64,000 bases of DNA from positions 124,001-188,000 of the forward strand of contig DATATI010000021.1 in NCBI GenBank assembly GCA_036268875.1, given 5' to 3'. Position numbers and translations under genes: made by a program. Every line of letters begins with the position of its first letter. The first letter of the stretch is position 1. Source of the stretch: Polyangia bacterium. GTDB lineage: Bacteria; Myxococcota_A; Polyangia; Fen-1088. Positions 21,795-29,488 of this stretch are shown one piece after another. The notes under the pieces are model-generated. The model was not told where the DNA came from. It made no database searches and was given only the letters and a program-made list of their open reading frames with translations.

Positions 21795-23783
21795 ATGTCG
21801 ACGCCCACTGCGCGCTTCTTCATCACCACGCCGATCTATTACGTCAACGCCCTGCCGCACCTGGGGACGTTCTATTCGACCGTGGTGGCCGATGCCTTGG
21901 CCCGGTACCACCGGGCGCGCGACGGAAAAGACAGCACGTATTTTCTGACCGGCCTGGACGAGCACGGACAGAAGATCGAGCGCATCGCCCGCGAAAAAGG
22001 CCTGGCGCCGCAGGCCTACTGCGACGGGGTGGCGGCCGAGTTCAAGAAGATCTGGGCCCGTGCCGGCATCAGCTATTCGCGTTTCATTCGCACCACCGAC
22101 GCCGACCACCTGGCCGCCGTGGCGGAGATGTGGCAGCGCCTGGTCAAAAGCGGCGATATCTACACCGCCGACTACGACGGCCTTTACTGCGTCGGCTGCG
22201 AAGAATCGAAGACCGAGGACGACGTTATCGTCGAGAACGGCGAGAAACTGTGCCGGATCCACCACACGCCGGTCGAGCGGGTGAAGGAGAAGAATTACTT
22301 CTTCCGCCTGTCGAAGTATCAGCAGAAGTTGCTGGATTGGTATGCCAGCGCCGAACAACCCGTGCGTCCCGAATCGCGGCGTAACGAAGTGGCAGAGTTC
22401 GTGCGCGGCGGACTGCGCGACATCTCGATCTCACGCACGTCGGTCAAGTGGGGCATCCCGGTGCCGAACGATCCCCAGCACGTCATCTATGTGTGGATCG
22501 ACGCCCTGACGAATTATCTGACCGCGCTGGGCGGACCGGCGGCCGTCGAGGCCGGCTCGGGCGACGGCGTTTTCTGGTCCGCCTCGCACCACCTGATCGC
22601 CAAGGACATCCTGCGCTTTCACGCCGTGTACTGGCCGGCCATCCTGTGGTCGGCCGGACTGCCGGCGCCGAAGCAGATCTTCTGCCACGGCTATCTGACC
22701 GTGAAAGGCCAGAAGATCTCGAAGTCGATCCCCGCCACGCGCGTCGATCCAAACGCCATCGCCGACGCGCTGGGCATCGATCCGATTCGCTACTTCGTTC
22801 TGCGCGAATACACGCTGGGCGGTGACGGCGACTTCACGTACGAGGCGCTGTTTCAGCGATACGAGTCCGATCTGGGGAACGACCTGGGGAATTTGTTGAA
22901 CCGGACCGTGTCGATGGCGCACCGGTATTTGGGCGGCGTGGTGCCGAAGTTCGAGTACCCGCCCGACGCTGACGACAATGAGACAACAGCTATAGCTGAT
23001 CGTGCGAAGGCCGAAGAGGCCTGGACCGATTTTTCGCCGTCGCGCGCGCTTGAAGCAACCTGGCAACTGGTGCGTCATCTCAACCGCCAAATCGAAATGA
23101 GAAAGCCCTGGAACCTGGCCAAGGATCCCAATGATCCCGAGCGTCGAGAGCTGAAGTTTCTGCTGGCTCAGTGCTGCGAAGCCTTGCGCTGGGCGGCGCT
23201 GATGGTCGCGCCGGCGATGCCGACGGCGGCGAAAGAGATCTTGCGCCAACTGGGACGCTCGGCCGACGAAGGCACTTGGCCGACGGCGTGGAACTGGCCG
23301 GGCGGAACACTCGAACAACCGCAACCGATCTTCCCGCGCATTGAACCGGAAAAACAAGCGGCGCTGATCGCCCGTTGGATGCCCGCCGAGGCGCCGGCGC
23401 CCGCGACCGCCACCGCCACCGCCAAACCATCCGCGCCCGCCGCCGACCCAACCCCGCCCGCCGAGATCGCCCTCGACGACTTCGCCAAGATCGATCTGCG
23501 GGTGGCCAAGGTCGTCGCCTGCGAACGCGTGCCGAAGGCCGACAAGCTGCTGAAGCTGACGCTGGACGTGGGCAGCGAACAGCGCACGGTGGTCTCGGGC
23601 ATCGCCCTCGCCTATTCACCCGAGCAGATGGTGGGGCGCACGGTGATCTATCTCGCGAACCTGAAGCCGGCGAAGATCCGCGGCGTGCTGTCGCAGGGAA
23701 TGATCCTGGCCGCGGGCGATGCCGACGTGCTGGGGTTGTCGGCGCTGGATCGCGACGTGGCGCCGGGCACGAAGGTTCGCTGA
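21795..23783 (+). CDS. metG: Methionyl-tRNA synthetase with C-terminal tRNA-binding domain
   Basis: Charges tRNA-Met. The 662 residues include the class I HIGH-like PHLGT near residue 21, a zinc-binding knuckle (CVGCEESK, then LCRIHH), the catalytic VKGQKISKS (KMSKS variant), an anticodon-binding helical domain ending near 520, and an EMAP/Arc1p-like domain at about 555-662 (DFAKIDLRVAKVVACERVPK). A Pro/Ala linker (APAPATATATAK) joins the last two. The start ATG follows ricT by 54 bp, completing a holB-ricT-metG block. Confidence 0.95.
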   Translation: MSTPTARFFITTPIYYVNALPHLGTFYSTVVADALARYHRARDGKDSTYFLTGLDEHGQKIERIAREKGLAPQAYCDGVAAEFKKIWARAGISYSRFIRTTDADHLAAVAEMWQRLVKSGDIYTADYDGLYCVGCEESKTEDDVIVENGEKLCRIHHTPVERVKEKNYFFRLSKYQQKLLDWYASAEQPVRPESRRNEVAEFVRGGLRDISISRTSVKWGIPVPNDPQHVIYVWIDALTNYLTALGGPAAVEAGSGDGVFWSASHHLIAKDILRFHAVYWPAILWSAGLPAPKQIFCHGYLTVKGQKISKSIPATRVDPNAIADALGIDPIRYFVLREYTLGGDGDFTYEALFQRYESDLGNDLGNLLNRTVSMAHRYLGGVVPKFEYPPDADDNETTAIADRAKAEEAWTDFSPSRALEATWQLVRHLNRQIEMRKPWNLAKDPNDPERRELKFLLAQCCEALRWAALMVAPAMPTAAKEILRQLGRSADEGTWPTAWNWPGGTLEQPQPIFPRIEPEKQAALIARWMPAEAPAPATATATAKPSAPAADPTPPAEIALDDFAKIDLRVAKVVACERVPKADKLLKLTLDVGSEQRTVVSGIALAYSPEQMVGRTVIYLANLKPAKIRGVLSQGMILAAGDADVLGLSALDRDVAPGTKVR

Positions 23784-23812
23784 AACGGACGCACCACCGC
23801 AGGCTGGGCCAA

Positions 23813-23832
23813 TTACGCAAAACTTTTCGTAA
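23813..23832. promoter_or_regulatory. Near-perfect palindrome TTACG-C-AAAA-C-TTTT-CGTAA
   Basis: The arms TTACG/CGTAA and AAAA/TTTT are symmetrical except for one extra C. It lies 29 bp after the metG stop and about 75 bp before the mbnP-like gene. It could be an operator for the mbnP-mbnH pair or a weak terminator of metG; there is no GC-rich stem, which argues against a classic intrinsic terminator. Confidence 0.35.
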
Positions 23833-23906
23833 AAACCGCCCGCTCAGCGACGGAAAATCGATCGTCGCGGCCGTCATTGCAGTGAGCGCCGATCGTCTGC
23901 CAAATC

Positions 23907-24878
23907 ATGCTGCCCCATTGGCCATTGAATCGTCGGTTCCTCGCGCCGCTGACGCTGTTGCTGAGCCTATCGACAGCGGCGGGATGTCAAGCGGGCGATC
24001 CCGGCGCCGGCGCCGGAACCGGCGGCAGCGGCGGTCAGGGTCCGTCACCCGAGCTGGACGCCGCCCTGGAAACCGGCGGCGAGCTGCCGGTGGCCAAGGA
24101 CCAGTGCCCGCAGTTGCCGGTTCCCATTCGCACCGACGGCGCAATCTTTGAGATCCCCATCGCCCTGCAGCTGGCGGGCAAGGTGATGCGCTTCGGCGAC
24201 ACCAACGTCGCTGCCGACGGCGAGACGGTGACGCCGCTGAACGTCCGCTTCTATCTATCGAACGTCGTGCTGACCAAGACCGACGGTGGCGGCCCGATCC
24301 CCGTCGACATCGTCAGCGCGACCGGAACGCCACTGCCTTACGGCGTGCACTTTTACACCGGCGATGATCCGACATCGCACATGCTGCGCGTGCGTGCGCC
24401 GGCCGGGTCATACAGCGGAATCCGTTTTTCGTTCGGCTTGCCCGACGGGTGCAACGAAGACGCAGCCCCCAAGAACGCGCCCCTGTCGGACGCGTCGCAG
24501 ATGACCTGGCCGCACGGGTTCGGGTTCCTGTTCTTCCGCTACGAAGGCCGCGTGTCCGCACCCGGCGACGGCGGCAGCACCGCTGGCGACGGCGGCGACG
24601 CCAATCAAAACGCCACCACGATTCCGACGGCGGTGCACATGGGCGGGTTTCCCGGAGTGCTCGGCGCGCCGGTGATTGCGATCAGCGCGCCGCTGTCCGT
24701 GCCCGCCACAGGCAACGCGCCCACGCTGCAGCTGGTGATGGACGCCGTCTTCAAAGGCGCCACCACCGACGTCAAGAGCGCGCTGCCGATCCCGCCGCCG
24801 CCTGGCACCGAAGCGACCTTGGGCGAAAATCTGCGCCAGGCAGCCGCTCATTTGACCTTGTTCGTGCTGGCGCCTTGA
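23907..24878 (+). CDS. mbnP: MbnP-family lipoprotein
   Basis: The 323-residue product has a signal with lipobox AAGC (Cys27), then a Gly-rich linker and a beta-sandwich domain. Family signatures are VRFYLSNVVLT, PAGSYSGIRFSFGLP and QMTWPHGFGFLFFRYEG. The family is known from methanotrophs: MbnP carries a tryptophan converted to kynurenine by the diheme enzyme MbnH, creating a copper-binding site. The Trp in QMTWPHG is the obvious candidate. The next gene overlaps this stop (TGATG) and encodes the diheme partner, which strongly supports the call. No methanobactin precursor is evident, so the role is likely copper handling in general. Confidence 0.82.
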   Translation: MLPHWPLNRRFLAPLTLLLSLSTAAGCQAGDPGAGAGTGGSGGQGPSPELDAALETGGELPVAKDQCPQLPVPIRTDGAIFEIPIALQLAGKVMRFGDTNVAADGETVTPLNVRFYLSNVVLTKTDGGGPIPVDIVSATGTPLPYGVHFYTGDDPTSHMLRVRAPAGSYSGIRFSFGLPDGCNEDAAPKNAPLSDASQMTWPHGFGFLFFRYEGRVSAPGDGGSTAGDGGDANQNATTIPTAVHMGGFPGVLGAPVIAISAPLSVPATGNAPTLQLVMDAVFKGATTDVKSALPIPPPPGTEATLGENLRQAAAHLTLFVLAP

Positions 24879-25957
24879 TGGCGAGCGGCGCACCGAACGC
24901 TCGCCGCCAGGGTTCGGCGCTGGGGTTGGTGCTGGCCGCGACGGTGATCGTTGGCTGCGCTGGATCGACGCCGGGCGCTGAAATGGTTCCGCCGATGCCG
25001 CTGGCGCTGTCGGCAGCGGCCGCGCCGCCCGGCTTTCCCACCGGTGGCGTGGCGTCGACCGCCCCCGCCGACAGTCCGCTGACCGAAGCCCGCGCTCAGC
25101 TCGGTCGTTCCTTGTTTTACGATCGACGTCTGTCGCGCACGGCGGAGATTGCCTGCGCCAGCTGCCATCAGCAGAAGTTCGCCTTCGCCGACTCCGTCGC
25201 CGTCTCGGCGGGCGTCGAGGGTCGGCACGGCACGCGCAACGCGCCGGCGCTGGTCAATCTGGCCTGGAACAGCACGTTCTTCTGGGACGGGCGCGCGCGC
25301 TCGCTGGAAGAACAGGCGGGCATGCCGATCGAAAATCCCGTCGAGATGGACCTGTCGCTGGCCGACGCCGTCGTGCGCCTGAACGCCGATGTCGCGTCGG
25401 TGTCGGCGTTCACCGCTGCCTTCGACCAGCCGCCTTCAGCCGAGACGCTGCGCCAGGCGCTGGCCAGTTTCGTGCGGACCCTGGTCAGCGGCGACAGCCC
25501 GTACGATCGCCATTTGCGCGGCGACGACAGCGCCTTCGGCGATTCCCAGCGGCACGGCGAAGCGCTGTTTTTTTCCGACAGGACAGCCTGCTTTCACTGC
25601 CACCCGGCCGGCGAACTGACCAACGACGGCCTCTTCAACAACGGCAGCTACACCGAAGGAGGCGATCCCGGCCGGCAGATGGTGACCGGCCTGCCGGGCG
25701 ACCTCGGAAAGTTCAAGGTCCCCGGCCTGCGCAACGTCGCCGCCAGCGCGCCGTACATGCACGACGGCTCGGTCCCGACGCTGCAGGCGGTGATCGATCA
25801 GTACGCGCGCGGCGGCCGCGGCCACCCCAGCACCGACCCGCAGATCGCGCCGCTGTCACTGACCGACGGCGAAAAAGCTGACCTCTTGGCGTTCCTGCGC
25901 GCGCTGACGGACGACGGGTTTCTCAGCGACGGCCGCTTCGCCGAGCCCGCCCGCTGA
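24878..25957 (+). CDS. mbnH: MbnH-like diheme cytochrome c peroxidase-family protein
   Basis: The ATG at 24878 overlaps the mbnP-like stop (TGATG); the product has 359 residues with lipobox VIVGC. Two c-type heme sites are present: CASCHQQKFAFAD and CFHCHPAGEL. Further features are GRSLFYDRRLS, NAPALVNLAWNSTFFWDGR and the C-terminal APYMHDGS with a distal heme-ligand Met. This is the CcpA/MauG/MbnH superfamily. Pairing with an MbnP protein argues for MbnH, which forms a bis-Fe(IV) state and oxidises a partner Trp. As a lipoprotein it would act in the periplasm. The heme-ligand assignment is family knowledge. Confidence 0.85.
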   Translation: MASGAPNARRQGSALGLVLAATVIVGCAGSTPGAEMVPPMPLALSAAAAPPGFPTGGVASTAPADSPLTEARAQLGRSLFYDRRLSRTAEIACASCHQQKFAFADSVAVSAGVEGRHGTRNAPALVNLAWNSTFFWDGRARSLEEQAGMPIENPVEMDLSLADAVVRLNADVASVSAFTAAFDQPPSAETLRQALASFVRTLVSGDSPYDRHLRGDDSAFGDSQRHGEALFFSDRTACFHCHPAGELTNDGLFNNGSYTEGGDPGRQMVTGLPGDLGKFKVPGLRNVAASAPYMHDGSVPTLQAVIDQYARGGRGHPSTDPQIAPLSLTDGEKADLLAFLRALTDDGFLSDGRFAEPAR

Positions 25958-25976
25958 AACTGGTTCGGCACGCCGA

Positions 25977-27191
25977 ATGCTGTGTTCAAATCGTATGGTG
26001 CTCACCAAGGCCCGCAAGCGATCGAAGCCGCTCCCGACCGTCGGGAATCTGATAAGCAGCGACGCCGCCGTCGTGCTGGCGTCGCTGATGGCGTCGATTC
26101 TCAGCTTCGGCTGCGGCCGCTCCGACACCGATCAGCCGGTCGAGGTGTCGGCCCTGTGCGCCGCGCCGGCGACCACCCGGACGCCGCCTTTTTCCGTGGA
26201 ATTTCATTTCAGGGCCAGCGACGGCAGCCCGGTGTTCTTGCACCAGAGCTGCATTGGGGTCGACTTCGGCGTCAGCTCGTGTGCGTCTGGATTTCGCGAG
26301 GCGCTGGGCCCGACGGCCGGGTGCGGCGGCTGCGATTGCGACACCGGGACGTGCACGAGCGTCTTGTGCGGCGGGTGCAACCCGGACGCGGGGATCGCCG
26401 TCAACGCCGGCACCTGGCTGTCGCAACCGTGGGACGGGTTCAGCTCGGAGCTGTTGTTGAAAGGCAACGGGCAGTGCTGGCGCTCGCGCGCGCTGACGGC
26501 GGGAAAATACCGGGTGGCGATCCGCGCGTTTGCCAGCCAGACCGACGCCCAGGCCGGCACGAGCGGCTGGACCGTCACGCAGGATTTCGACCTGCCGGCG
26601 CCCGACGACGTCGTCGACGTTCCGCTGGGATCGTTCCGCCCGGACACCTGCGATCCCGACCCGCTGGCCGCCGCGCCGACCTGCACGGGCGTCGAAGGGC
26701 GCGCCACCGTCTGCAACCTGGGGCAGACGATCGCCTTCAACTGGAACGGCGGCCTGGTCGGCTTCGCCGATTCGTCCTCGGTGGCGCCGCCGGCCGCCTT
26801 CACCAGTCACCGCGACTTCTTCCAGCCCCAGCCCCCACCGATGCCCATTGATTGCGCCGCAGCCATCCCGCGCTGTTCGGCGGACGCGCGGGTGGTGACC
26901 ACGTCCGATGTGACCAAGGCGCTGGCAGCGCCGTCGGTGGCCAGCGCCTTCGCGGCGCCGATGCCTCTTTACGGGGTGGACGAACGACCCACCGACGGCG
27001 CGATCTTCGTCGTCTCGCGGCCAGACGGTAAATCCATCGGCATCGGCGGACCCTGCGATGCCAGCGCCGGCTCCCTGCCTTGCGGTCGTCCGCTGACGGA
27101 CGATCTGCGCGCCCTGTCGACGCTCTTCTTCAATCTGAAGAGCCAGCTGACCACCCGCGATTGCCCGTCCTTCGCCTTGCCCGGTATTTGA
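25977..27191 (+). CDS. Cys-rich lipoprotein downstream of the MbnP/MbnH pair
   Basis: The 404-residue product begins with a positively charged stretch, a hydrophobic segment AAVVLASLMASILSFGC with lipobox FGC (Cys46), then an unrecognised domain. Residues 116-134 hold a compact cluster CGGCDCDTGTCTSVLCGGC (six Cys at 116, 119, 121, 126, 131, 134), resembling a metal-binding knuckle. A beta-strand-rich region with KYRVAIRAFASQTDAQAGTS follows. The start at the ATG at 25977 or 25995 is uncertain. It lies 19 bp after mbnH on the same strand, so it is probably the third gene of that operon. I do not recognise a named family. Confidence 0.65.
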   Translation: MLCSNRMVLTKARKRSKPLPTVGNLISSDAAVVLASLMASILSFGCGRSDTDQPVEVSALCAAPATTRTPPFSVEFHFRASDGSPVFLHQSCIGVDFGVSSCASGFREALGPTAGCGGCDCDTGTCTSVLCGGCNPDAGIAVNAGTWLSQPWDGFSSELLLKGNGQCWRSRALTAGKYRVAIRAFASQTDAQAGTSGWTVTQDFDLPAPDDVVDVPLGSFRPDTCDPDPLAAAPTCTGVEGRATVCNLGQTIAFNWNGGLVGFADSSSVAPPAAFTSHRDFFQPQPPPMPIDCAAAIPRCSADARVVTTSDVTKALAAPSVASAFAAPMPLYGVDERPTDGAIFVVSRPDGKSIGIGGPCDASAGSLPCGRPLTDDLRALSTLFFNLKSQLTTRDCPSFALPGI

Positions 27192-27239
27192 CCATTCGAC
27201 TCGGCCGCGCCGACATTTCCGCTGGCCGACATTTTCGCT
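27188..27239 (+). promoter_or_regulatory. Candidate icd promoter with two 15-bp direct repeats
   Basis: Two near-identical 15-mers, GCCGACATTTCCGCT (27209-27223) and GCCGACATTTTCGCT (27225-27239), lie 16 bp apart just upstream of icd. TTGACC at 27188-27193 could be a -35 element, with a poor -10 around 27212. A 16-bp step places two copies on nearly opposite faces of the helix, so the reading as an operator is tentative. Confidence 0.35.
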
Positions 27240-27275
27240 TGCCTAGGCGGGCCTGGTCCTTCGTAATCACTGCCC

Positions 27276-29488
<2,213 letters not shown>

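Follow-up and report, generated by a model that had tools for sequence, protein, structure and literature searches.

A W-P-H variant lineage of the MbnP/MbnH-type gene pair in Polyangia and its candidate copper site

The window analysed here, a stretch of 64,000 nucleotides from a Polyangia bacterium (GenBank assembly GCA_036268875.1, contig DATATI010000021.1, positions 124,001 to 188,000), contains three co-oriented open reading frames (ORFs) in tandem on the + strand, at window positions 23907–24878, 24878–25957 and 25977–27191. These encode an MbnP-fold lipoprotein of 323 aa, a diheme enzyme of MauG/MbnH type of 359 aa with the lipobox IVGC, and a Cys-rich, two-domain lipoprotein of 404 aa, respectively. 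The ATG of the diheme ORF (24878) sits within the stop of the MbnP-like ORF (TGATG overlap), and the ATG of the third ORF (25977) lies 19 bp past the diheme stop. The heme motifs CASCH (25154–25168) and CFHCH (25589–25603) of the enzyme and the motif QMTWPHG of its partner (residues 198–204), which had been given in a preliminary description of the sequence together with the overlap, were all located in these ORFs. The same description had taken the first two genes for an MbnP/MbnH-like pair and the third for a possible extra metal acceptor in a periplasmic copper-handling set.

Family and fold of the paired proteins

The partner protein passed the gathering cut-off of the Pfam family MbnP (PF20243) with 66 bits against 27. 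In PDB profile searches, a profile from 20 MbnPs matched the solved MbnP of Methylosinus trichosporium (7l6g) at 1e-61, and a profile from 10 short-type sequences still matched it at 3e-9. The AlphaFold model of the partner, built on those 10 short-type sequences, was of moderate confidence, with a predicted local distance difference test (pLDDT) value of 63 and a predicted template modelling (pTM) score of 0.62. Compared with 7l6g, the model gave a Foldseek E-value of 2.5e-6 and a VIA Z-score of 12.7, with a root-mean-square deviation of 4.1 over 210 residues, the next entry having a Z-score of 3.3. Because the model matches 7l6g well and no other entry, the window partner is, as modelled, a protein of MbnP fold.

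For the diheme enzyme, CCP_MauG was the top Pfam family (191 bits versus a cut-off of 25.6), and MbnH (6e1c) was the best solved-structure match. The MbnH model TIGR04039 was the best of 10 families with 282.8 bits, followed by the MauG model with 216. The column of the axial ligand is occupied by Tyr in the window enzyme (Y309, 25802–25804) and in 6e1c, and by Met in the peroxidases 2c1u and 9qdt, while the His of the svgHgw loop in 1eb7 aligns with Val. The window enzyme accordingly has neither the axial Met nor the loop His of a bacterial diheme cytochrome c peroxidase. MauG itself carries Tyr at the axial-ligand position, and these two columns are what we take to tell MauG-like enzymes from peroxidases.

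The W-P-H motif and its distribution

The family motif M-x-W-x-W reads M-T-W-P-H in the window partner (M199-T-W201-P-H203, 24501–24515), so that the W-x-W pattern is lost and H203 stands at the position of the second Trp. W201 is the residue expected to become kynurenine at this predicted site, and H244, followed by M245 (24636–24641), is the distal His and the likely second copper ligand as judged from the alignment. The replacement of the second Trp, the absence of the family cysteines and the separate position of the lineage had escaped the preliminary description.

The MbnP alignment comprised 93 distinct rows, eight of a W-P-x clade including the window and 85 others; three of the 93, L236 and both L096 rows, are fragments or are truncated where a contig ends. 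M199, T200, W201, P202, H244 and M245 were invariant in all eight clade members, and residue 203 was His in seven (WPH) and Pro in one (WPP; genome G006). Among the 85 other rows, the first Trp was retained in 78, the second Trp in 75 and the distal His in 76, and His was found at the second-Trp column in none. The cysteines of the canonical family, which fall in six columns, were missing from all eight clade members at each column. The six Bacteroidota rows likewise lack them, and among the remaining 79 rows between 61 and 74 have them, depending on the column; the PDB title of 7l6g names a four-Cys motif protein.

Both trees set the W-P-x clade apart. In the tree of 67 chosen diheme rows (66 of the diheme set and 6e1c), the five enzymes of the clade formed one group (support 100/100), and 6e1c grouped with 29 canonical rows (100/100), leaving the window clade outside the MbnH clade. 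Met-type peroxidases formed a third group (100/100), and the MbnP-linked enzymes, including that of the window, came together at modest support (90/87). The MbnP tree was computed from 43 of the 93 rows, with bootstrap values that had not settled; in it the W-P-x rows grouped at 100/99 and, together with the Bacteroidota and WPxMM rows, were split from the canonical rows at 97/96. By these sequence comparisons the partner and enzyme trees are congruent, and the pair is one separate lineage.

The distribution search covered 317 genomes of the class with at most six candidates scored per genome, and loci were collected for the best 80 of 155. Strong W-P-x matches were obtained in eight of the 317 genomes, i.e. 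four of the family of the window (G000, which is the genome of the window, G003, G006 and G008) and four of one other genus (G576, G577, G578 and G580, the Sorangium group). The clade includes the complete genome of Sorangium cellulosum So0157-2, and the W-P-x variant is therefore not an assembly artefact. A diheme gene adjoins the MbnP gene in all eight genomes. Some match at 1e-8 was returned for 102 of the 317 genomes; those beyond the eight were weak, and the ones that were aligned were canonical MbnPs. The Pfam MbnP family itself is common, being present in 48 of 144 relatives.

Retention of the first Trp went together with the presence of a diheme gene. Such a gene was located within 1.7 kb of 79 of the 86 MbnP rows keeping this Trp, and of none of the six rows with Ser in place of Trp and Asp in place of the distal His, despite their full flanks; the one remaining row of the 93 was a fragment without the motif. 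Of the seven Trp rows with no diheme match, two are the truncated L096 frames, and for the other five the available downstream sequence amounts to 1.1 to 1.3 kb. The direction of this association fits the Trp as the target of the enzyme, as far as aligned sequences can indicate.

Some further rows of the alignment are worth recording. The Trp-less paralogues (L082–L087, of G121, G116, G138, G118, G124 and G129) occur in genomes that each hold further MbnP copies. L238 (G431, contig C231) is a short MbnP with the architecture of the window protein that keeps W-x-W (MYWTWGTRY) and is possibly an intermediate; its match is split over two frames, and the contig stops short of any diheme gene. Two MbnP-type ORFs, L079:3790–4758 (+) and L081:5042–5971 (-), have MEWPxMMGGGYHY in place of WxW with a diheme gene adjoining each, and this MEWPxMM type appears as a second lineage that has lost the second Trp.

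The Cys-rich third gene and the surroundings of the locus

The third protein carries the announced pattern CxxCxCx4Cx4CxxC, from C116 to C134 (26322–26378), with the correction that only four of the six Cys stay invariant across both full-length relatives: when the window protein is aligned with these two, C116 and C131 are not conserved. Shared by all three are about a dozen Cys distributed along the whole protein, and the pattern looks more like the disulfides of an exported protein than like a metal cluster, as far as the alignment suggests. No Pfam or NCBIfam family matched the protein. Against the PDB, only two non-significant matches were obtained by sequence (E-values 1.6 and 1.9) and none by profile, and the AlphaFold model from the single sequence was unusable (pLDDT 37, pTM 0.25).

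Full-length relatives of the third gene were found in three of the 144 genomes, those of the window, G003 (contig C158) and G008 (contig C76). The G008 relative is cut at its 3′-end by the match, and the G003 relative, L058:1861–3016 (+), was matched in two frames, indicating a frameshifted gene or an assembly error. In both genomes the relative lies on another contig than the pair, beside unrelated genes. In G003 the diheme gene is followed by an ABC-F-like gene, and in G008 by an unrelated gene, where the contig ends inside the MbnP gene and the downstream flank of the diheme gene is clear. The third gene was not found in G006, which has the pair, and the four Sorangium-group genomes had no full-length copy, two of them showing weak matches to the C-domain only.

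The gene thus adjoins the pair in one of the eight clade genomes, the window itself, and is absent from that place in the seven others, which is the outcome that the preliminary description had named as refuting its third-component idea; by this neighbourhood the gene was rejected as a part of the system. It is most likely a lineage-specific lipoprotein gene and a chance neighbour not required by the pair, although perhaps co-transcribed with it. The N-domain occurs alone in lipoproteins of G104, G115 and G123, whose neighbouring genes have no visible copper role and which are not among the listed Pfam MbnP carriers. The C-domain (residues 235–383) in turn is found joined to different N-terminal parts in many genomes of the family to which the window belongs (L006, L008, L009, L010, L012, L015, L017, L018 and L019).

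Read by eye and without a family search, the gene upstream of the tandem is metG-like, and those downstream are icd-, mdh-, sucC- and sucD-like. A scan of positions 23700–27300 for sigma-70-like promoters returned no sites, with 0.2 expected; terminator-like sites numbered six, with 2.7 expected, and none of them fell in the 19-bp gap before the third gene. A perfect 6-bp inverted repeat with a 2-base loop occupies 25964–25977, so that its last base is also the A of the third-gene ATG, and may be due to chance.

Proposed function and comparison with known kynurenine copper sites

The first two genes probably make up a pair that is complete in itself and serves to build a Cu(I) site dependent on kynurenine. 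In this scheme the diheme enzyme would be exported and lipid-anchored; its two hemes, with Tyr ligation as in MbnH, would undergo oxidation at the peroxide level, and the enzyme would thereby convert W201 to kynurenine. The partner would then bind one copper ion through H244, with H203 as a probable and M199 or M245 as a possible further ligand, and would hand the copper on or buffer it outside the cytoplasm. Residues i and i+2 of a beta-strand face the same side, and H203 could therefore reach the metal.

Several results weigh against this explanation. The partner scored 31.4 bits against the curated cut-off of 140 of TIGR04052 (MbnP_like_WxW equivalog), and the enzyme stayed below the 362.85 of TIGR04039. 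Since both curated models fail, the kynurenine and copper chemistry would be carried over from distant relatives, which on the MbnP side share only about 21–28% sequence identity with the partner. In G006 the pair persists with Pro at residue 203, suggesting that H203 is not essential there. The six Trp-less rows all come from one genus and so count as about one event. No copper gene was recognised by eye near the pair in the window, and in the four Sorangium-group genomes the pair was not seen with any recurrent neighbour. The preliminary assignment to an MbnP/MbnH-like pair was upheld as to the Pfam family, the 7l6g fold, the kept Trp and the Tyr-ligand enzyme, and fell short at the two curated cut-offs and at W-P-H in place of W-x-W.

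An ordinary periplasmic peroxidase, to which the MbnP-fold protein would be an accessory whose Trp is not made into kynurenine, would agree with CCP_MauG as the top Pfam family and with the stretch FWDGRA...EQA, which is as in peroxidases and not the TWANP of MbnH. We regard this as rather unlikely, given the axial Tyr instead of Met, the missing loop His, a tree that splits the enzyme from the Met-type peroxidases and places it with the MbnP-linked enzymes, and the partner Trp invariant throughout the clade. The enzyme might also oxidise its partner to a different end, e.g. to a hydroxylated or cross-linked Trp or for a metal other than copper. MauG-type enzymes yield more than one product, and the loss of the second Trp and of the family cysteines implies a site other than the one characterised so far. 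The first Trp, the Met two residues before it and the distal His are nevertheless kept as in canonical MbnP, and a different product or metal is judged improbable.

That all three genes form one functional set, in which copper would pass from the MbnP-type protein to the Cys protein, is suggested by the 19-bp gap and the common strand, and by the occurrence of the full-length third gene, in family f1 (18 genomes), in three genomes that all hold the W-P-x pair, itself present in only four of the 18. This co-occurrence is weak, as G003 and G008 belong to one genus. With the gene beside the pair in the window alone, no full-length copy in G006 or in any Sorangium-group genome with the pair, N-domains standing alone in genomes without a listed MbnP, and two of the six clustered Cys not conserved, such a three-gene set is very unlikely.

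The kynurenine copper sites known to us (those of MopE, CorA and MbnP) are all from methanotrophs. In MbnP of Methylosinus trichosporium OB3b, the copper ligands are one His, one Met, one water and kynurenine. The window pair resembles the OB3b MbnP/MbnH (7l6g, 6e1c) in the MbnP fold, the first Trp, the Met two residues before it, the distal His and a Tyr-ligand diheme enzyme adjoining the partner. It differs in having W-P-H versus W-N-W, no family cysteines, an enzyme outside the MbnH clade and no methanobactin genes. The PNAS 2021 paper on MbnP states in its title, as given in the reference list of PMC9426467, that copper binding depends on kynurenine formation. The short Bacteroidota MbnP-type proteins with diheme partners (L124, L136, L140, L141 and L143) are sister to the clade in the MbnP tree and likewise have no family cysteines, whereas they keep W-x-W (e.g. 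MYWSWNSGYIF). The WPxMM proteins of G111 and G133 share the lost second Trp, the kept Trp-Pro and the diheme neighbour, but have MEWPxMMGGGYHY and form a separate branch.

In CorA of Methylomicrobium album, Cu(I) is bound by His64 and His114 with Kyn62 nearby, and its gene shares a transcript with a diheme gene of peroxidase type (PMC3912023); MopE of Methylococcus capsulatus uses Kyn130, His132 and His203 at its copper site (PMC3423442). The window pair is similar to CorA/CorB and MopE/SACCP in its Trp(Kyn)-x-His with a distant His, represented by W201-P-H203 (H203 in seven of the eight clade members) and H244, and in the diheme gene of the peroxidase/MauG superfamily next door (PMC3912023, PMC3423442); the likeness is one of residue pattern, not of geometry, and is offered as a testable lead. 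The PDB profile searches and the fold searches listed neither CorA nor MopE among their matches, an absence that does not disprove homology. It is possible, though doubtful, that this myxobacterial clade swapped the second Trp for His on the MbnP fold and so reached the CorA/MopE type of copper site independently, with a diheme lineage of its own, by convergence.

No W-P-H form was recognised in the titles and opening lines of abstracts of the literature on MbnP/MbnH and CorA/MopE, with the networks of the MbnH (JBC 2019) and MbnP (PNAS 2021) papers left uncompared. Occurring in culturable Sorangium without methanobactin genes, the W-P-H clade would show which residues the site needs, what role the second Trp has, and whether the same ligands were reached convergently in two families; W-x-W, W-P-H, W-P-P and the Trp-less paralogues without a diheme neighbour form a natural contrast set. 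The absence of methanobactin genes near the pair, claimed in the preliminary description, was borne out. MbnPH pairs occur widely beyond methanobactin producers (PMC3621798) and are found in copper-related operons (PMC9426467). Earlier work has already described such pairs apart from methanobactin operons, and the W-P-H lineage is an unusual version of them.

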